Assembly: GCA_017643365.1 (NCBI GenBank)
Contig: JAEPNO010000023.1
Span: 1 to 41,757, forward strand
DNA from: Balneolaceae bacterium
GTDB taxonomy: Bacteria; Bacteroidota; Rhodothermia; Balneolales; Balneolaceae
Length of the DNA: 41,757 nucleotides
Direction of reading: 5' to 3'
A model generated the notes under the pieces. It had not been told where the DNA came from, did not search any database, and saw only the letters and a list, made by a program, of their open reading frames with translations. Shown in pieces: positions 14,874-28,411 of the stretch (positions within the stretch are counted from its first letter, which is position 1; the number at the start of each line of letters is the position of its first letter). A program made the position numbers and the translations under genes.

Positions 14874-15251
14874 ATGGATGCACCTTCGATTGTTCTGGCC
14901 GAACCCAATGAACTGTTACGTAAAGTTCTCGATGATAAACTCAGCATGCATGGGTTTAATATACTGCCGGTTGTAAATGGGATAGAGTTAGAAGAAATAC
15001 TTGATGAAAAAACCGTTGATCTCATTATTGCTGAAGAATTTCTGCCCTATAAAAATGGATTGGAAATAATCGAGTTAGCAAATTTAAAAAACATCCCGGT
15101 TATCATTATTAGCGATGCCGATCTTGAGGAGAAAATCATAGAAGCATTCGAATTGGGCGCCTCTGATTTTATCGACAAACCGTTTTCTCCCAACGAAGTT
15201 CTTGCCCGAGCTAAGAATATTCTAAAAACAAAGAGCAGAGTGAATGTTTGA
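14874..15251 (+). CDS. Pseudo-receiver domain protein (response-regulator fold, phospho-Asp replaced by Glu)
   Basis: A 125-aa single receiver-fold protein. The CheY-like order is clear: strand 1 'SIVLAEPNELLRKVL', then 'VDLIIAEEFLPYKNGLEII', then 'IPVIIISDADLEEKI', then 'GASDFIDKPFSPNEVL'. The switch Ser80 and the conserved Lys102 are present. However, the phospho-acceptor Asp position is Glu54, and the N-terminal acidic pair is reduced to Ala-Glu (A9-E10). An Asp-to-Glu change can lock a receiver in an active-like state, so this may be a phosphorylation-independent protein-interaction module. There is no output domain. The stop overlaps the start of the HEAT-like gene by 8 nt, and a GT2 synthase follows, so it may control polysaccharide synthesis by direct contact. 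Confidence 0.85.
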   Translation: MDAPSIVLAEPNELLRKVLDDKLSMHGFNILPVVNGIELEEILDEKTVDLIIAEEFLPYKNGLEIIELANLKNIPVIIISDADLEEKIIEAFELGASDFIDKPFSPNEVLARAKNILKTKSRVNV

Positions 15252-15966
15252 CGTCAATGTTTTCACTTGGGCTCCGGTCGAAGATTATTGGTTAGTTCAA
15301 ATTGTGCAATATATAATTGCTTTAATTGGAGTCGTGCTCTTTGCCTTAGCCTATTTTCGACTCATACATACGGTTACAGAAGCGAATCGCAGAAAATTTG
15401 AATCCACTCTTTATAGTTTACTTTCGAAAATTTTAAACCATCCTGAAAAGAAAGAACAGTATTTGAAAAGGATGGATAAGCTGGTAAAAAAACACTGGCA
15501 AAAAGAAATACTACTTGATCAATTAATAAACATATGTTATTCGTTTAAAGGGGTTTATGCCGATCGGGGTCGAGAAGTGTTCGATCACTACAAATTCTTA
15601 AAACGTTCGAAGCGTAAACTGAAATCCTTACGTTGGAATAAGGTTGTAGAAGGAATCATCGAGTTATCAATAATAGCAGAAAAGGATGGCAGACGAGAGA
15701 TTTTTAAGTTGATAAACGATCCGCATCCCGAAGTTCGAAAAGAAGCTAGAATTGCAATCGTAGAAATAGATCGTATTCAAGGTTTGATAGATATGAACGG
15801 TGTCCTCGGGAAAATGTCGCGGTGGACATACATCTCAATATTTTCGGTTTTGCAACGAAGTCCGTTTAAACTTTCTACAAAGGATTTCAATGCGCTTTCA
15901 AAATCGAAAAACCCAAGTATGCGAAAGTTAGTGCGCGAACTTGAACCTTATGCAGTGGCTGATTAA
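15244..15966 (+). CDS. Membrane-anchored HEAT-repeat-like protein
   Basis: A 240-aa protein with one N-terminal transmembrane helix (about residues 18-42: 'LVQIVQYIIALIGVVLFALA') and a long, very basic, helix-rich cytoplasmic part. The segment around 'INDPHPEVRKEARIAIVEI' (~157-176) has the HEAT/PBS-repeat look, with alternating helices and a conserved Asp-Pro-x-x-x-V-R-x-x-A. The last ~40 residues ('SKSKNPSMRKLVRELEP') look like another repeat. HEAT-like domains usually act as scaffolds. It overlaps the pseudo-receiver gene upstream by 8 nt and the glycosyltransferase gene downstream by 1 nt (TAATG). The likely role is to connect the receiver with the membrane synthase; this is inference from context. 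Confidence 0.75.
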   Translation: MFDVNVFTWAPVEDYWLVQIVQYIIALIGVVLFALAYFRLIHTVTEANRRKFESTLYSLLSKILNHPEKKEQYLKRMDKLVKKHWQKEILLDQLINICYSFKGVYADRGREVFDHYKFLKRSKRKLKSLRWNKVVEGIIELSIIAEKDGRREIFKLINDPHPEVRKEARIAIVEIDRIQGLIDMNGVLGKMSRWTYISIFSVLQRSPFKLSTKDFNALSKSKNPSMRKLVRELEPYAVAD

Positions 15967-17399
15967 TGGAATTTTCGGGGCAAGTATTAGTCGAGTTTTT
16001 AAATGTGGGGATCATAATCTTCGCAATAAGCATTATGTCGGCATATTTTATACTAGCGGTAATCTCGCTTTATGCAATGCGCAGTTACCTTCGAAAAAAC
16101 TCGAACGAGTATTTTGAAGATCTGCTTCGATCACCACTCGCGCCCAAAGTATCGATCATAGCCCCGGCATTTAACGAACAGCTTTCTATCGTAGAAAATA
16201 TTCGATCGTTATTATCGCTGCATTACAATAAATACGACATCATTATTGTGAATGATGGTAGCAAGGACAACACCTTGCAGTTGATGATAGATGCCTACGA
16301 TCTGGAAATTGTTGAAGAAGAACCAACTTCTGAGTTAGCTCATAAACCGGTTAATAATGTCTATCGATCAAAGAAAAGAGCTTATCGGAAATTGGTAGTA
16401 ATCGACAAAGAAAATGGAGGCAAGGCGGACGCTTTAAATGCCGGAATCACCTATTCCGATGCCGAGCTAATCGCCTGCGTTGATGTTGATTGTGTGATTG
16501 AGGATGACGCACTGCTACGAATGGTTAAGCCTTATTTATCGGCAAACGACCACAAAGTTATTGCAGTGGGTGGGGTGATTCGAATTGCTAACAACTGCGA
16601 AATCAAAAATGGCAGGTTGATAAAAGTGAGACTGGCTAAAAACTGGTTAGCCACCTTTCAAACGTTGGAATACATTCGAGCATTTTTACTGGGCAGGATG
16701 GCATGGGCGCATCTGGATGGCTTACTCATCATTTCCGGCGCTTTCGGTATGTTTGATCGGAAATTGGTAATAAAAGTGGGCGGCTACGATCATAAAACTG
16801 TGGGCGAAGACATGGAATTGGTGGTTCGACTCCGGAAATACATGGCCGAAAAGGAAGCACCTTACAAAGTGGCATATGTTCCTGATCCGCTATGTTGGAC
16901 TGAAGCCCCTGAAGACTTAAGTACCTTTATTCGTCAACGCAATCGGTGGACACGCGGCACTATTGAAACCCTCAGTTTTCATAAAGAGATTTTCCTGCGC
17001 CCTAAATTCGGGTTGATGGGCATCCTCAGTTATCCGTTCTGGTTTGTTTTCGAGTGGTTGGCACCTTTGATCGAGTTTTTTGGCCTGTTCTATTTTATCG
17101 TGATTGCATCCCTAGGCTTAGTGTATTGGTCGCACTTTTTTCTGCTGATTTTACTCGTGTATGTTTTTGCCGTGTTGATATCGTGGTTCGCGTTGCTAAT
17201 GGAAGAAACCACTTACCGCGAATATGCACAGGGCGGAGCGCTACTAAAACTGATGTTTTTTGCCCTCCTGGAGCCGCTAATTTATCACCCAATAACAGTT
17301 TGGGGAGCGGTAAAAGGCAACATCGATAAATTCATTCTAAAGAAAAACAGTTGGGGTGCACAGCAGAGAAAAGGGTTTTCAAAAACGGGAAAGACTTAG
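15966..17399 (+). CDS. Processive family 2 glycosyltransferase, membrane-embedded (exopolysaccharide synthase type)
   Basis: A 477-aa membrane GT2. One N-terminal TM (~13-36) precedes a cytoplasmic GT-A domain with the nucleotide-sugar motifs 'IIIVNDGSKDNT' (D97), the metal-binding 'CVDVDCVIED' (D173, D175), the acceptor-site 'VGEDMELVVRLR' (E281-D282) and the processive-enzyme signature QRNRW (324-328). Three or more TMs follow (about 353-450). This layout matches the cellulose/hyaluronan/poly-N-acetylglucosamine synthase group that polymerises and extrudes beta-linked polysaccharide; the sugar cannot be told from sequence. There is no PilZ domain, so direct c-di-GMP control is not evident. 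The overlapping pseudo-receiver and HEAT-like proteins are the likely control partners. A diverged copy of its 3' end lies just downstream. Confidence 0.9.
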   Translation: MEFSGQVLVEFLNVGIIIFAISIMSAYFILAVISLYAMRSYLRKNSNEYFEDLLRSPLAPKVSIIAPAFNEQLSIVENIRSLLSLHYNKYDIIIVNDGSKDNTLQLMIDAYDLEIVEEEPTSELAHKPVNNVYRSKKRAYRKLVVIDKENGGKADALNAGITYSDAELIACVDVDCVIEDDALLRMVKPYLSANDHKVIAVGGVIRIANNCEIKNGRLIKVRLAKNWLATFQTLEYIRAFLLGRMAWAHLDGLLIISGAFGMFDRKLVIKVGGYDHKTVGEDMELVVRLRKYMAEKEAPYKVAYVPDPLCWTEAPEDLSTFIRQRNRWTRGTIETLSFHKEIFLRPKFGLMGILSYPFWFVFEWLAPLIEFFGLFYFIVIASLGLVYWSHFFLLILLVYVFAVLISWFALLMEETTYREYAQGGALLKLMFFALLEPLIYHPITVWGAVKGNIDKFILKKNSWGAQQRKGFSKTGKT

Positions 17400-17626: not shown

Positions 17627-18088
17627 ATGGAACAAGATGCAAAGTTAATTGGTGAAAAAGCTTTTTCATTAATACAAAAATTGAAAAGTGGTGCAATAAG
17701 TGAGAATGATTACAGAAGTGATCCAGTAGCAGTAGCAAAAGCTCATGGTATTGTCATTCATCACAGTAAGGTTGATGAGTTTAGATCTAAAGTGAAAGAT
17801 TCGTTTCAAAAAAGAGATCATGCTGAAATACGAACAATGCTTGTTGCCACTAACCAGGGGTGCTTTTGGTGTGAACAAGGAATGACAGTTGCAATTGCTG
17901 CACTCGCAATTTTATCGATAGCAGCAATTGCCTATGCAGTTGTCACTTTTACAGGAGGTTTTGGCGTTGAAGCAATTATTGCATTTTTAGAATCACAATT
18001 TGCAGTTAATGTCTCAACAGCGATAATCGTTGTAGGTGCGGGAGTACTTGCAGAGATGTTATGCAAAGAATTTGGTGCGTGTAACTAA
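17627..18088 (+). CDS. Unrecognised 153-aa protein: leader-like N terminus, CFWC motif, two hydrophobic segments
   Basis: I do not recognise this family. Residues 1-75 are soluble and helical; 'YRSDPVAVAKAHGIVIHH' resembles the 'DPxxAlxxxGI.I' core of nitrile-hydratase-like (NHLP) leader peptides. Then comes 'NQGCFWCEQG' (Cys79, Cys82), a hydrophobic helix (about 86-108, Ala/Ile-rich), a Gly-rich turn, a second hydrophobic stretch (130-145) and a Cys-containing end 'LCKEFGACN' (Cys146, Cys152). A charged leader followed by a Cys-bearing, Ala/Gly/Ile-rich hydrophobic core is what peptide-bacteriocin or RiPP precursors look like. However, no modification enzyme, peptidase-transporter or immunity gene is adjacent. 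It could equally be a small membrane protein with a CxxC site. It stands alone, after the GT2 remnant, and looks AT-richer than its neighbours. Confidence 0.7.
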   Translation: MEQDAKLIGEKAFSLIQKLKSGAISENDYRSDPVAVAKAHGIVIHHSKVDEFRSKVKDSFQKRDHAEIRTMLVATNQGCFWCEQGMTVAIAALAILSIAAIAYAVVTFTGGFGVEAIIAFLESQFAVNVSTAIIVVGAGVLAEMLCKEFGACN

Positions 18089-22256: not shown

Positions 22257-22335
22257 AAAATCCTGTGTCGGTTAATTTTCCAGACAATACAGAATTAGCG
22301 GGAGATAATCAGCGTATCTAACTAAGATGTTTTAA

Positions 22336-22366
22336 TTGATAAAGCTGGATTTACTAACTTTATCAA
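22336..22366 (-). terminator. AT-rich inverted repeat at the 3' end of the kinase cluster (possible weak terminator)
   Basis: TTGATAAAG (22336-22344) and CTTTATCAA (22358-22366) form a perfect 9-bp stem that includes the stop codon of the last receiver gene. The stem is AT-rich and the following minus-strand sequence (TTAAAACATC) is not a clean U tract, so termination strength is doubtful. Confidence 0.3.
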
Positions 22367-22743
22367 GTTGTTGGAAGTAGTTCGGTTAATGCAGCTTCCA
22401 CTTCTTTTTTGATAAATGGTTTTTGCAAGTACTTTGCAATTACACCTCGATCAACGGCATCCAATATTTCCTCGTTAATGCCAAAGCCAGTTAAAATGAG
22501 GTATTGTTTGTTGGGGTATATAGCACGTGCACTTTCGATAAACTGAATCCCATTCATTTCAGGCATTCTCATGTCAGAAATTACAATGTTTATTTCCGGA
22601 TGATCACTCAGTTTTACGAAGGCCTCTTTAACCGATTCAACAACAATGATATTGTACTTTTTACCGAAAGTCATTTCAAATACTACAAGGTTGATGGTTT
22701 CATCATCAACGTATAACACGGATTTTTTTTCTTCATTATTCAT
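22363..22743 (-). CDS. Stand-alone response regulator receiver (partner of the PAS kinase just upstream)
   Basis: A 126-aa receiver domain with no output domain. All functional residues are present: the acidic pair D13-D14 ('LYVDDETINLVVFE'), phospho-acceptor D57 ('IVISDMRMPEMNG'), T85 ('LILTGFGINEEI') and K108 ('YLQKPF'). Its start overlaps the end of the 602-aa histidine kinase gene by 8 nt, which makes cognate pairing very likely. Single-domain receivers act by protein contact or as phosphate sinks/shuttles. It resembles the receiver at 24642 closely (shared 'YVDDE.INL.VFE', 'SDM.MP.MNGI.FI', 'LTGFG.NE'), so the two kinase-receiver pairs arose by duplication. Confidence 0.92.
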   Translation of the reverse strand: MNNEEKKSVLYVDDETINLVVFEMTFGKKYNIIVVESVKEAFVKLSDHPEINIVISDMRMPEMNGIQFIESARAIYPNKQYLILTGFGINEEILDAVDRGVIAKYLQKPFIKKEVEAALTELLPTT

Positions 22744-24544
22744 AAGGCAATAAAATTTTGGCTGTTGTACCCTTACCTAAAGTAGAGTTGTATGTAATCG
22801 TCCCTTGATGTTCTTTTATGATATTAAATGTGATTGATAAGCCCAAACCAGTTCCCTCGCCGGGATTTTTAGTGGTAAAAAAGGGATCACTTATTTTTTC
22901 TAAATGATCTGGTTCAATTCCTGAGCCATTGTCTTCTACTTCAATTGCTAGATTACCGTTGTTTGAACTTGTTGTAAGCATGATTTTACCATTTTGGTTT
23001 TCAATAGCTTGAATCGAGTTCGTAATGATATTTATAAACACTTGGTGTAATTTCCCACTATTGCCCATTATCGCATGCTGTTCTGCATCAAAATTCCTTA
23101 CAATTTCGACTTTATTTTTATACATGGTTTTAAGCATAAGCAGGCAATTCTCTAAAATTGAATGAATATCGCACACTTCATCATACTTATCGTTACTTCT
23201 GTTGAATTGGTTAAGTCCATGCACAATAGCGGTGGCTCTATCTACTCCTGTTTTAATGGTAGAAAGTAATAAGTCTACCGTGTCATCTTTCTTTTCAGGT
23301 TCATCTTCGTAGTGCATTTCTAAAGCCTGATAACCACCAAGTATATAGTTCAATGGATTATTGATTTCATGCGCAACGCCTGCAGTAAGCACACCTAAGG
23401 AGGCCATTTTTTCGGAATGGACTAATTGAGATTGAGCTTCTTTAAGGTTCGACATTGCAGTTTTTAGCTCATTATTCGTTTCTCTTAATTCTTGATTTGC
23501 AGCTTCAAGATCTTCGGTTTTTTGTTGAACCAGTTCTTCCAAATTATATCGATACTTTTCCAGTTCTCTCTGTATCGACTTTTCTTCGGTGATATCTCTT
23601 AAAATGCCTTGTATATACTTTTTATTATCAAGTTCTACCACATTTAAAATTATTGAAAACTCCATGATATCGCCATTTCCGGTTAGATGTTGCCATTCGA
23701 ATGGTTTAGAGTTTCCATCAAAAGCAGCCTGAACATATTCTATCGATTTTTCTGACGACCTACTCCCATCCGGTTGAAATTCCGGGCTTAGTTCACCGGG
23801 CGATTTGCCAATCAATTCTTTTTTAAGAAGTCGAAAATATTCGCACGCTTTATTGTTTACATCTACAAAAGCATTATTCTCGAGTACAACAATGGCGTCG
23901 TTTGCACAATCAAACAATTGCCTGTATTTGGCTTCGTTGTTTGACAACTCTGCATTTTGTTGCTCAATTTTAATGTAGTTGTTTTCCAGCCTCTTGCGGA
24001 AATAATGTGCGATAAATAAAAATCCACAGGAAGTAAATGAAATCAGAATTAATTCAACAAACCAAGTTATGGGGTGAGAAATGTACCCAATTACGTTAAA
24101 TGAGTATTCACGAAAGCCGGTTACGAAACTCCAGTAACCGAAAAGATAGATTACGGTAAAACCTAAGTAAGCATACAATGCTGCTCGAATTGATATAACA
24201 AAAGACAGAAAAACAGGGGTGAGAATAATAAATGCTTTTGTTGAGCTGAGATATCCACGGGTATAAAAGGCAGATATAGTTACTGCAAGAACAGCAAAAA
24301 CAAAGAAAAAGACTTTTTGATTGAGTGTTAGTCGTTTTCTGAAATAAGTGGCTCCAAAAATCACTAATGCGTTAGCAAGCTGAATGTAGAATGCAGTATT
24401 AAAGCCAAAATCGAACGCAATATTTCTATAAAAAACAATTGTGTTAATTATGCCGATGAAAATACTAAATGCAATCAGCGAACGATCAACTATGATATTT
24501 TTTAGCTGATGGAGTTCCCCGGTTGTTTCAACTTTTTGGAACAT
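22736..24544 (-). CDS. Membrane PAS histidine kinase (third of three paralogues)
   Basis: A 602-aa sensor kinase. An N-terminal membrane module of about six helices (~20-185) is followed by a PAS domain (about 205-320, '[19 protein letters not shown]' to '[13 protein letters not shown]'). Next come a coiled coil (~322-375), an H-box with the phospho-acceptor His392 ('[15 protein letters not shown]') and a GHKL ATPase domain ('[20 protein letters not shown]', 'VEDNGSGI', '[17 protein letters not shown]'). The ligand is unknown. The membrane module is homologous to those of the kinases at 25019 and 26510. It is coupled to the receiver gene at 22363 and follows the receiver at 24642 by 97 bp, all on the same strand. 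Confidence 0.93.
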
Positions 24545-24641
24545 TTCATACCCTTAAACTTGAAACCATTTATTACGCAATGAAATACATAACACTGATT
24601 TAAATTTTGATACCCTTTTATCGGAGAATTTAGAACGAATC

Positions 24642-25022
24642 TTAAGTATTAAGTTCTTCTACGGATGCCCTGATAGTGAGCTCTAAATTTCTTTTCAGAT
24701 ATGGTTTTTGGATGTATTCTTTAATTAAGCCATTTGCCATGGCCTCTTTAATCACCTCATTTTTGCCAAAGCCGGTTAGTATGAAATAAATGGTATCCGG
24801 ATGTGTAGTTTTAGCTTGGGTTATGAATTCAATTCCATTCATACGAGGCATTTTCATATCAGAAACTACCACATGGATCTTCGGGTGCTCATTTAGAACT
24901 TCTAAAGCAAGTGCACCATTTTTGGCGGTATACACTTCAAATTTTTCTTTGAAGGCAAGTTCAAATACTCTCAAGTTGATAACTTCGTCATCGACATATA
25001 AAACTTTTATTGGATCAATCAT
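24642..25022 (-). CDS. Stand-alone response regulator receiver (partner of the 453-aa kinase)
   Basis: A 126-aa receiver domain, complete for phosphotransfer: D11-D12 ('LYVDDEVINLRVFE'), phospho-acceptor D55 ('VVVSDMKMPRMNG'), T83 ('FILTGFGKNEVI') and K107 ('YIQKPY'). There is no output domain. Its ATG overlaps the TGA of the kinase at 25019 in an ATGA junction, so translation is coupled and the two are surely a cognate pair. It is a close paralogue of the receiver at 22363. With no DNA-binding or enzymatic partner in the cluster, its target must be elsewhere, or it may serve to cross-wire the three kinases. Confidence 0.92.
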   Translation of the reverse strand: MIDPIKVLYVDDEVINLRVFELAFKEKFEVYTAKNGALALEVLNEHPKIHVVVSDMKMPRMNGIEFITQAKTTHPDTIYFILTGFGKNEVIKEAMANGLIKEYIQKPYLKRNLELTIRASVEELNT

Positions 25023-26380
25023 GTCACCGAAAATGCTTCAAATTCAATATTTACTTCCGTACCCGAAGATTCGTTAGAATTGTACGTAATTATAGCATTA
25101 TGCTCAGATAATATTTTAAAAACAATGGAAAGCCCTAATCCGGTGCCTTCTCCGGGTGAACGGGTAGTAAAAAAAGGTTCCGATATTTTTGGAAGTATAT
25201 CTTTAGAAATACCAATTCCACTATCCTTTATATTAACAGCAATTACTTGGTCATCAACATTGGTTTCGATATCAATAGTGCCTGATTCTGGAATTGCCTG
25301 TATAGAATTGGTTAAGATATTCAAAAACACCTGATGCAATTTCCCATTATTCCCTTTTACAAATGCGGGAGAGAGGGAGAACATTTTATTTACCGTAATT
25401 TTATCATCCAGCTTTTGGTTTAATATTACGACGCAGTTTTTAATAATCAGGTGGAGGTCGCAGACGTCATGCATGTCGTCAGATTGTTCGCTAAACTGAC
25501 TTAAACCCGATACTATGGTCTTTGACCTATCGAAGCCGGTTTCAATACTGTGGAGATAAAATTCTAGCTCTTCGTCTTTCAATTGAGGATTATCTTCAAA
25601 AAACTCGGAGATTCCGGTTAACCCGCCTTGAATAAAATTGAGGGGATTATTTAACTCGTGCGCAACTCCTGAAGTTAATATCCCGAGCGAAGCTAACTTT
25701 TCGTTATAAACTAATTGATCCTGAGTGTTTTTAAGTTCAGAAAGTGTTTTTTCCAAATCGGCAGTTTTTTTGCCAACCATTTGTTCCAGATTATCTTTGT
25801 ACTGCTTTAGTTCAGAATAATTCTCCTTTAGTTTTTCTTTAAATCGATGACCGATATAAAGTGTAACCCAGCTTGTGAAAAACAAAATGGTGGCGTACAA
25901 AACCCAAGCTTTTAAACTTGTAACTACGCCTTCTACATCAATTGAATAGGTTAGCGTGCCAGATGTATACAAAAACCCGAAGGTGATAAAGATTCCGGTG
26001 AGTAAAAGTAATGATGAAAATGCCTGTCGATACGATCTAATGAACGAAAGTATGAAGGGGAGTACGGTTATGTAAACGGTAGCATTAGCGAGGTAGCCAA
26101 GGTTAGATAAACCGGTAATTAGTGTGAGCAAAACTACGGCAAAAAGAACAACTATCTTTGTATTTAGGCTCAGTTTCTGCCTTAAAATAGTTATGCCGAT
26201 AATTCCGAGAAGACTAACAGATTGTATGATAAAAGCCTGGCCAACATCAAACTGGACATCACGAAAATAGGAGACGATCTGAATAACAATCCCAACTCCA
26301 CTAAACAAGATCAAGCCTGTGTTTACAACCTGATTTTGAAGCTCATAAATTTCATCATTAATAGAGTTTTTGTCACTCAT
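25019..26380 (-). CDS. Membrane histidine kinase without PAS domain (second of three paralogues)
   Basis: A 453-aa kinase. It has the same six-helix N-terminal membrane module (~20-180) as its two neighbours but no PAS domain: a short coiled coil (~183-225) leads directly to the H-box His241 ('LTSGVAHELNNPLNFIQGG'). The GHKL ATPase domain is complete ('GNNGKLHQVFLNILTNSIQA', 'IKDSGIGI', '[19 protein letters not shown]'). Comparison with the 602- and 607-aa paralogues shows the PAS was lost here or gained by the other two. It ends in an ATGA overlap with its receiver gene. A gap of 129 bp separates it from the end of the first kinase. Confidence 0.93.
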   Translation of the reverse strand: MSDKNSINDEIYELQNQVVNTGLILFSGVGIVIQIVSYFRDVQFDVGQAFIIQSVSLLGIIGITILRQKLSLNTKIVVLFAVVLLTLITGLSNLGYLANATVYITVLPFILSFIRSYRQAFSSLLLLTGIFITFGFLYTSGTLTYSIDVEGVVTSLKAWVLYATILFFTSWVTLYIGHRFKEKLKENYSELKQYKDNLEQMVGKKTADLEKTLSELKNTQDQLVYNEKLASLGILTSGVAHELNNPLNFIQGGLTGISEFFEDNPQLKDEELEFYLHSIETGFDRSKTIVSGLSQFSEQSDDMHDVCDLHLIIKNCVVILNQKLDDKITVNKMFSLSPAFVKGNNGKLHQVFLNILTNSIQAIPESGTIDIETNVDDQVIAVNIKDSGIGISKDILPKISEPFFTTRSPGEGTGLGLSIVFKILSEHNAIITYNSNESSGTEVNIEFEAFSVT

Positions 26381-26509
26381 AGAATTGCATAAAGCAGATA
26401 ACCTAAAAAAAATGGAAGCTTAAAGAAGCCTCCATTGATAGCACAAAAATATAGTTTAAATAATTCAAGCGTTTCCGAATCTGAGAGCATTCTAATAATG
26501 CGAAGAGAC

Positions 26510-28333
26510 TTACTCTAGAATAGAGTATTTAAAAGATAAGTTTACAGTTGTACCAAGGTTGTTGGATGAGTCAAAGTGTATTTCGGCACCATGAGCATCA
26601 AGAATTTTAAAAACAATGGTTAAGCCTAATCCGGTGCCTTTGCCGGGGGCTTTGGTTGTGTAGAAGGGATCGGCAATTCTACTCAAATCTTCTTTGGAAA
26701 TTCCGGTTCCATTATCATTAATTACAATCTGAAATATAGACTCAGTTTTATTGATTTGTATTCTAATTAATGGTGATTCAACTTGTTCAACCGCGTGAAT
26801 GGCATTCGTGAGTAAATTCAAAAATACCTGATGTAGTTTTCCTGAATTTCCCTTTATCCTTGCCTGAGAATCTGTGTAGTCTTTTTCGATGGTAAGCTCA
26901 TCGGGTATTTGATGGCGAAGAATGACTAAACAATTTTCAATAATCTGTTTAAGATCACAGACCTCGTCTAAATCATCGTTTTGCCTACTAAATTCATTTA
27001 AACTCGAAACGATAGAATTAGATCGATCAATTCCATTTTGGATGCTGAATAAATAGAATTCAAGTTCTTCGTTGGTTAAATGGTCATTGTTTTTGAAGAA
27101 CTCTTCAATGCCTTCTAACCCGCCCTGTATAAAGTTAAGCGGATTGTTTAGTTCGTGGGCAACTCCTGAAGTTAACACCCCAAGCGATGCCATTTTATCG
27201 GCTTGCATAAGCTGACTTTGGGTTTCTTTCAGTTCTTGGAGCGCCAAGTTTAATTCATTATTCGAACTCTTTAACTCTTTATTTTTCCTATTTAAATCTT
27301 TGGTTTTTTTCCTAACCATTTGTTCGAGTTTGTTTCTGTACTTATCTAACTCTCTTTCAATTTCTTTTTGTTCGGTTATATCGCGTAAAATTCCTTGAAT
27401 GTAGATTTCATCGCTAAGCTCAACTAAACTCAGTTTTATATCAACATCTATAATCTTGCCGGAACTATGAAGATGCTGCCATTCGAATCGAACTTTCTCA
27501 CCACCCATTAATTCAGCAACATTATTTTCGGCCGCTTGTTTCGAGCTTAATCCATTAGGTTGAAATTCGGGGCTTAATTCCCACGGAGTTTTACCTATAA
27601 ACTGCTCTTTCTCTAACCCAAACAATTCAAGTGCTTCTTTGTTACTCTCGAAATACACACCATTGTTTAACAGAACAATTGCATCATTGGCTTGCTCAAA
27701 AAGTGCTTTAAATTTCTTTTGATTGTTATCCAGCTCAATATTTTGTTGCCCTAGCTCAATATTTTTGGATCGGATTTTTGATCCAAATCGATAGGCAACA
27801 TACAATACTCCCCAGGTAGTACTAATGATTGTTATTAGCTCGCCAACCCAAGAGGAGGGATGGTCGAGGTAAGTTCTAATATCAAAGTTGTAATCGAGAT
27901 AATCTGTTAAGAATAAAAAACCAACTGAGATATAAAATAAACAGTAAAATAATAGGGTATAGACTGCATGCCTAATCGACCAAACAAATGCTATAAAAAT
28001 GGGGGTAATTGCCAGATAATATTTAACCGGTGAAATTAACCCTCTACTAATTAAACCATTAAAAAGGCCAATAGTGATAATTACTACAATAATTGAGAGC
28101 TTTATTTCTATCGAAATGCGTTTTCGAAGAATTGCCAATCCTATTATAAGTGACGTAATAACCGATTGAATAATAATCGGTAAAACTAGGTCAAACTGGA
28201 TGTTTCTGATATACGCAACTATGGTTACGATTACCAGAATAAAACTGAATACAACCAACGCTTTATCGAGAACTTCATTCTGAAGATCGTAAAGCTCTTT
28301 GTCTCGATTCCAGCTTTTGTTGTTTCTAAACAT
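26510..28333 (-). CDS. Membrane PAS histidine kinase (first of three paralogues, no adjacent receiver)
   Basis: A 607-aa kinase with the same architecture as the one at 22736. A membrane module of about six helices (~25-185) precedes a PAS domain (~207-322, 'KFKALFEQANDAIVLLNNG' to '[12 protein letters not shown]') and a long coiled coil. The H-box His393 lies in 'LTSGVAHELNNPLNFIQGG' and the GHKL domain contains '[20 protein letters not shown]', 'INDNGTGI' and 'FYTTKAPGKGTGLGLTIVF'. Its H-box region is closer to that of the 453-aa kinase, while its domain layout is closer to that of the 602-aa kinase. Unlike those two it has no receiver gene after it. It is the promoter-proximal member and follows the S10 peptidase gene by 78 bp. 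Confidence 0.93.
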   Translation of the reverse strand: MFRNNKSWNRDKELYDLQNEVLDKALVVFSFILVIVTIVAYIRNIQFDLVLPIIIQSVITSLIIGLAILRKRISIEIKLSIIVVIITIGLFNGLISRGLISPVKYYLAITPIFIAFVWSIRHAVYTLLFYCLFYISVGFLFLTDYLDYNFDIRTYLDHPSSWVGELITIISTTWGVLYVAYRFGSKIRSKNIELGQQNIELDNNQKKFKALFEQANDAIVLLNNGVYFESNKEALELFGLEKEQFIGKTPWELSPEFQPNGLSSKQAAENNVAELMGGEKVRFEWQHLHSSGKIIDVDIKLSLVELSDEIYIQGILRDITEQKEIERELDKYRNKLEQMVRKKTKDLNRKNKELKSSNNELNLALQELKETQSQLMQADKMASLGVLTSGVAHELNNPLNFIQGGLEGIEEFFKNNDHLTNEELEFYLFSIQNGIDRSNSIVSSLNEFSRQNDDLDEVCDLKQIIENCLVILRHQIPDELTIEKDYTDSQARIKGNSGKLHQVFLNLLTNAIHAVEQVESPLIRIQINKTESIFQIVINDNGTGISKEDLSRIADPFYTTKAPGKGTGLGLTIVFKILDAHGAEIHFDSSNNLGTTVNLSFKYSILE

Positions 28334-28411
28334 CAGGAGTAATTACATGAATTAATCAGTTTAGCAATCATCCATTATTTTAACCTAAAACTCAAACTAA
28401 ATATATTTGAA

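Follow-up and report, generated by a model that had tools for sequence, protein, structure and literature searches.

What do three adjacent membrane histidine kinases sense, and where does the signal go when the receivers encoded beside them have no output domain? The question is raised by a five-gene cluster in a Balneolaceae bacterium (phylum Bacteroidota), lying within positions 1 to 41,757 of contig JAEPNO010000023.1; this whole stretch of 41,757 nucleotides is referred to here as the window. The cluster comprises three complete membrane histidine kinases (HK1, HK2 and HK3) and two complete stand-alone receivers (R2 and R3; Table 1). We lean towards reading it as a lineage-specific cluster assembled on an existing Bacteroidota cassette, an HPK4-type kinase with its own receiver, which has taken up a divergent MASE11-type membrane module in the sensor position, with sensing and relay following the steps proposed below. 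The domain order, the intact catalytic residues, the relation to MASE11 and the recurrence of the cassette with other sensors can all be read from the sequences themselves.

Domain organisation of the cluster

Each of the three kinases carries a HisKA domain with an H-E-x-N-N-P-L box and a HATPase_c domain with N, G1, F and G2 boxes, and is accordingly of the HPK4 type. Direct reading found the H-E-[LI]-N-N-P-L motif and the N, G1 and G2 boxes intact throughout. R2 and R3 are single-domain response regulators, consisting of a receiver alone with the acidic pair, the phospho-accepting aspartate, the threonine and the lysine (DD, D, T and K, again by direct reading) in place. In both, Response_reg is the sole Pfam family above its cut-off, in agreement with a preliminary description of the cluster, made from the sequence alone, that had called the receivers output-less. 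The same description had counted three membrane kinases and two receivers, with only two kinases coupled to a receiver, and the gene structure confirms this: HK2 and R2 overlap by 4 nt and HK3 and R3 by 8 nt, a pattern as in translationally coupled pairs, and no receiver gene is coupled to HK1. HK1 and HK2 are separated by a strong terminator-like hairpin, so that HK1 probably has a transcript of its own, not shared with the two kinase-receiver pairs. Searches of the full cluster proteins against NCBIfam returned generic kinase and receiver matches only, and the modules alone returned nothing consistent.

The shared membrane module is a divergent relative of MASE11

A shared, paralogous six-helix membrane module is present in all three kinases, as previously described. 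The accompanying claim that it could not be assigned to a known domain is not supported: at profile level the module matches Pfam MASE11 (PF20969), and a match to a MASE family is what the preliminary description itself had named as refuting the claim. Alignment of the module with MASE11 using hhalign gave 97.5-97.7% over 185-186 columns (E 1e-12 to 8e-12), compared with 0.1-3.4% for reversed or column-shuffled control profiles. When the bacterium's whole genome was searched with MASE11, exactly 8 matches were obtained, namely the three window kinases and five on contig C11; a profile built from no more than these 8 copies retrieves true MASE11 proteins encoded in other genomes, matching them over the full module. 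Furthermore, MASE11 is matched by 21 of 24 module relatives, the next Pfam family matching 7 of them with an E of 0.014 or worse. A bridging case is provided by L173, a kinase of the Bacteroidetes bin GSL.Bin23, which was found by the window-derived profile and also lies above the MASE11 cut-off (27.9 bits). The profile matches, the hhalign comparison with its controls, the Pfam matches of the relatives and this bridging kinase together identify the module as a divergent relative of MASE11, a relation that these sequence comparisons support well.

Set against closer kinship are the scores of the window copies, all of which, like those of the five C11 copies, fall below the curated Pfam cut-off of 27.3 bits (HK2, 23.2 bits with E 7e-5; HK1, 15.7-17.8; HK3, 12.1). 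By Pfam's own rule they are therefore not members of the family. In the module tree, MASE11 and the window-type clade are split with support of 100/99, and the window trio forms one clade (96/93). Invariant K, P and W positions are kept in the module alignment. All of the sequence motifs listed in the preliminary description are real; the trio alone has R-[ND]-[IV]-x-F-D and SIR.A.Y, and the wider relatives share no more of the R-K-x-x-S region than the R and a K further downstream. MASE11 itself is a catalogued domain but an uncharacterised one, and no paper mentioning it was found in the literature searched.

A predicted fold resembling adenylyl cyclase membrane domains

For the HK1 module and for a true MASE11 domain, AlphaFold2 gave confident models (predicted local distance difference test, pLDDT, 87 and 86, respectively), each with six helices of matching length; no periplasmic domain is predicted in the module and most of its loops are short. 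Comparison of the HK1 module with the PDB using VIA-align placed membrane cyclase structures in the top eleven rows (Z of 12.5 for AC9, 11.4 for AC5, 11.0 for ImcA, 9.8 for AC8 and 9.5 for Rv1625c), with the first unrelated row at 8.7. The MASE11 model gave Rv1625c as its best match (Z 10.2), the next unrelated row standing at 8.0. The predicted folds of the module and of MASE11 thus both find their best match in class III adenylyl cyclases, whose membrane domain has six helices, a likeness without a sequence match, and the last helix is predicted to run on as a signalling helix. The likeness gains weight because two separately modelled families point to the same small structure class. Three observations count against it: helical bundles may agree by chance at VIA-align Z values below 13; Foldseek returned no match with an E below 0.8 for the module model; and a hidden Markov model search of PDB sequences gave no match up to E 10 for either module family.

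Membrane domains of this kind are reported to act as receptors. Inhibition of Rv1625c by C18 mono-unsaturated fatty acids requires its membrane domain (PMC12505454), and with CqsS, a six-helix quorum sensor, in place of its own anchor the enzyme responds to the autoinducer CAI-1 (PMC4821796).

Distribution of the module and its output domains

The bacterium's own genome encodes a second tandem array, in which five MASE11-like modules are carried by HisKA_2 kinases, a different kinase class (L039:4881-12555, equivalent to G000:C11:172880-180554). On one side of this array lies a PIG-L-type deacetylase-like gene, on the other a phenylalanine hydroxylase-like gene; the array is also found, with different copy content, in a genome of the same genus. 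In its fifth kinase (L039:11353-12555), an in-frame TAA shortly before the phospho-histidine box leaves a sensor without a kinase.

Within the family, the module is present in 13 of 92 genomes, and HisKA_2 occurs in all 15 family relatives that have a complete kinase part and lie close to the window-type clade. The same-genus genome G001 has the C11-type array only. A phylum sample of 394 genomes yielded one further match outside the family, a chemoreceptor. Relatives outside the family were sought by a contig scan with the alignment of the three kinases; HK2 alone as query matched nothing. L173 carries the module on a window-type kinase, without a PAS domain and without a receiver, and L178 (Bacteroidales UBA5349) combines a MASE11-like module, a PAS domain, a window-type kinase and a downstream receiver. 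A weak MASE11-like membrane module was also seen in methyl-accepting chemotaxis proteins of a distant family (L159:343-2130 and L094:235-2031).

These occurrences bear on the possibility that the module is a mere membrane anchor or dimerisation element, sensing being left to the PAS domain in HK1 and HK3, with HK2 constitutive or modulating. Such a role would suit a module with no predicted periplasmic domain and mostly short loops, as well as the presence of PAS in two kinases and the identity of the HK1 and HK3 PAS domains, which at 49% exceeds that of their modules (31%). We nevertheless regard it as improbable. HK2, L173 and the C11 kinases carry the module without a Pfam-recognised PAS domain, and the module would therefore be the only input there; it keeps the invariant K, P and W positions; and it is found on HisKA, HisKA_2 and methyl-accepting chemotaxis outputs alike.

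A Bacteroidota kinase-receiver cassette

An HPK4 kinase lies directly upstream of each of the 9 stand-alone R2/R3-type receivers whose loci were read, with beta-propeller, PAS or short membrane sensors. Conversely, of the 10 nearest named loci in Bacteroidota, 7 have a receiver directly downstream of the kinase, with 7TMR-DISM, multi-PAS and other sensors; L178 is among them. Because the same cassette thus recurs in Bacteroidota behind unrelated sensors, the output-less receiver is, as judged from these loci, an ordinary trait of the cassette and not special to the cluster. Outside Bacteroidota, receivers next to related kinases sit mostly in longer proteins.

How such receivers might signal has precedent: the single-domain receiver EpsW acts by direct protein contact (PMC12802240), and PhcS is thought to phosphorylate regulators without a DNA-binding site (PMC11960443). 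The preliminary description had suggested looking elsewhere for a histidine phosphotransfer (HPt) protein, and one stand-alone HPt-like open reading frame of 144 aa was found above cut-off (L261:7597-8028, G000:C3), near unrelated metabolic genes; no other free HPt was found in the genome. Because it is encoded there, a phosphorelay via this protein, one of the two kinds of circuit that the preliminary description had proposed, is possible.

Alternatively, the receivers could serve as sinks for phosphate or inhibit their cognate kinases by feedback (cross-inhibition, the other kind of circuit proposed there), without any downstream output. The lack of an output domain in R2, R3 and their Bacteroidota cassette relatives points this way, as does the lack of neighbour genes shared among relatives of different genera. 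That said, the longer proteins that hold receivers beside related kinases in other phyla (mostly 280-830 aa) and the availability of the lone HPt protein speak against such a role, and a pure sink would hardly be kept across so many lineages. We judge it unlikely.

Two further arrangements concern receivers. At window positions 14874-17399 (+ strand), a third stand-alone receiver overlaps an unannotated 240-aa gene and is followed by a PgaC-like glycosyltransferase, an arrangement that resembles receiver-linked polysaccharide synthesis. At L117:5937-8901 (G000:C14), a HAMP histidine kinase is followed by a protein that fuses a receiver to a HisKA_2 kinase, an arrangement in which one kinase may regulate the other.

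Proposed signalling route

With the module taken as sensor, a module dimer may bind a hydrophobic or membrane-borne ligand (a lipid, a fatty acid or a lipid-like signal); six-helix membrane domains as ligand receptors have precedent (PMC4821796, PMC12505454). Helix 6 would relay the resulting change to the histidine-bearing helices, via PAS in HK1 and HK3 and directly in HK2. Phosphate would then pass to R2 from HK2, and probably also from HK1, and to R3 from HK3; the receivers would act by protein contact or, by way of the free HPt protein, hand the phosphate on.

Partner choice in two-component systems is set by the dimerisation and histidine phosphotransfer (DHp) region. The DHp sites common to only two of the three kinases number 23 for HK1-HK2, 6 for HK1-HK3 and 8 for HK2-HK3. 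Because HK1 and HK2 resemble each other in this region far more than HK3 resembles either of them, we predict that HK1 feeds R2 and that HK3-R3 forms a separate, insulated pair. A point against pairing HK1 with R2 is that it draws on the similarity of three sequences only.

A wider proposal, which we hold to be rather unlikely, would place MASE11 and the window-type clade in one superfamily with the membrane domains of adenylyl cyclases and ImcA, as interchangeable receptors for lipid or hydrophobic signals on two histidine kinase classes and on chemoreceptors; the trio would then be a lipid-sensing array with three inputs, two of its sensors feeding the same receiver. Membrane domains of adenylyl cyclases reportedly respond to fatty acids; if MASE11 and its relatives do share their fold, there is a concrete class of candidate ligands for a kinase whose readout is simple. 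Together with its relatives, the cluster also forms a natural series in which one kinase-receiver cassette carries different sensors, and which can help in learning how output-less receivers signal.

Origin of the three kinases

The kinase cores are 56% identical between HK1 and HK2 and 45% between HK1 and HK3, and the modules 31% and 31-33%, respectively. These values are far above chance and the modules form a single clade, upholding the earlier view that the kinases are paralogous. The tandem duplication proposed with it is only partly supported: the cores of HK1 and HK2 are sisters (100/99), but the HK3 core groups with Bacteroidota kinases of other families (96/94), and the trees neither establish nor reject a single origin for all three (approximately unbiased test, p-AU 0.07-0.15). 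Likewise, the preliminary description was right to place PAS in two kinases (HK1 and HK3), but its suggestion that HK2 lost the domain is not shown, because the related kinase L173 also lacks it. HK2 aligns to the other kinases with a clean gap across PAS.

That a single ancestral kinase-receiver unit was simply triplicated in tandem, HK2 then losing its PAS domain and HK1 its receiver, has in our estimation slightly less than an even chance. The single module clade (96/93), the sister cores of HK1 and HK2 and the unrejected common origin of the three cores all accord with it, whereas the placement of the HK3 core among kinases of other families does not, nor does the separation of R2 and R3 in the receiver tree, itself weakly supported. 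A mosaic origin of HK1 by gene conversion was considered, since the module tree joins HK1 with HK3 and the core tree HK1 with HK2; it is not claimed, because the module tree is also compatible with HK1+HK2 (p-AU 0.16).

Presence and absence of the locus in the genus

In the sister species (G001), S10 and M14 peptidase genes lie 247 bp apart and the cluster is absent, the flanks otherwise keeping the same order at 78-95% identity. Because of this match, the block is, on comparison of the two loci, a clean presence/absence difference, to which either gain or loss may have led. A third genome of the genus (L255, G002:C174) has S10 followed by a cupin gene, without M14 and without the kinase cluster; the stretch is thus variable in the genus.

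Recent horizontal acquisition of the cluster as an island is a tentative alternative that we consider somewhat doubtful. The clean absence within a matching gene order would be expected of an island, as would a GC content of 35% compared with 42-45% in the flanks. Third-position GC, however, is 31-36%, within the genome's range, and GC is equally low in the C11 array, which the genus conserves; both observations weaken the case that low GC makes for a recent horizontal gain. In addition, no integrase gene was seen beside the block, and homology upstream of M14 reaches the R3 stop codon, which is also compatible with loss in the sister species. An R3 remnant there was sought as a sign of loss, but the alignment was too weak to call.

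Elsewhere in the window (17627-18088, + strand), a 153-aa protein with a soluble start, a GCFWCEQG stretch and a very hydrophobic tail has no Pfam or NCBIfam match.

Table 1. Features of the kinase-receiver cluster. Coordinates are window positions; all five genes are on the minus strand.
Feature	Position	Strand	Description
Whole block	22257..28411	.	35.4% GC; absent at the same place in the sister species
HK1	26510..28333	-	607 aa; MASE11-like six-helix module, PAS, HPK4-type HisKA, HATPase_c
HK1 MASE11-like six-helix module	27719..28333	-	N-terminal, aa 1-205; AlphaFold2 model, six helices, pLDDT 87
HK1 PAS domain	27365..27718	-	About aa 206-323; Pfam
HK1 kinase core (HisKA + HATPase_c)	26513..27238	-	Sister to HK2 core
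Terminator-like hairpin with T run	26411..26436	-	Between HK1 and HK2; consensus match only
HK2	25019..26380	-	453 aa; six-helix module joined to kinase core, no PAS
HK2 MASE11-like six-helix module	25766..26380	-	23.2 bits, E 7e-5; highest of the three
HK2 kinase core (HisKA + HATPase_c)	25022..25741	-	
R2, stand-alone receiver	24642..25022	-	126 aa; phosphorylation motifs intact
HK3	22736..24544	-	602 aa; six-helix module, PAS, HPK4-type kinase
HK3 MASE11-like six-helix module	23930..24544	-	
HK3 kinase core (HisKA + HATPase_c)	22739..23452	-	On a branch other than HK1/HK2
R3, stand-alone receiver	22363..22743	-	126 aa; phosphorylation motifs intact

Comparison with known systems

The window modules share with MASE11 six helices of matching length, a colinear profile match along the full length, K/G/W anchor positions and, in this family, frequent fusion to HisKA_2 kinases. 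They differ in their sub-threshold scores, in lacking the YWR-type motif that precedes helix 1 of true members and in forming a separate clade. The likeness to the membrane domains of class III adenylyl cyclases (Rv1625c/Cya and mammalian AC5/8/9) and of the diguanylate cyclase ImcA lies in the predicted six helices, the last running on into a signalling helix; the sequence relation is undetectable, and the output in the window is a kinase rather than a cyclase. By architecture, the cluster can also be likened to the CqsS-type six-helix quorum-sensing kinases and PhcS, in which a membrane sensor is joined to a histidine kinase (PMC4821796, PMC11960443). CqsS, however, is a hybrid kinase, and no signal synthase was noticed beside the window cluster. 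With the Bacteroidota pairs of HPK4 kinase and stand-alone receiver (Reg_prop/Y_Y_Y, 7TMR-DISM and PAS sensors), the cluster has in common the kinase core, the receiver type and the overlapping or near-adjacent gene order; it is set apart by its MASE11-like sensor and by the clustering of two such pairs with one orphan kinase.

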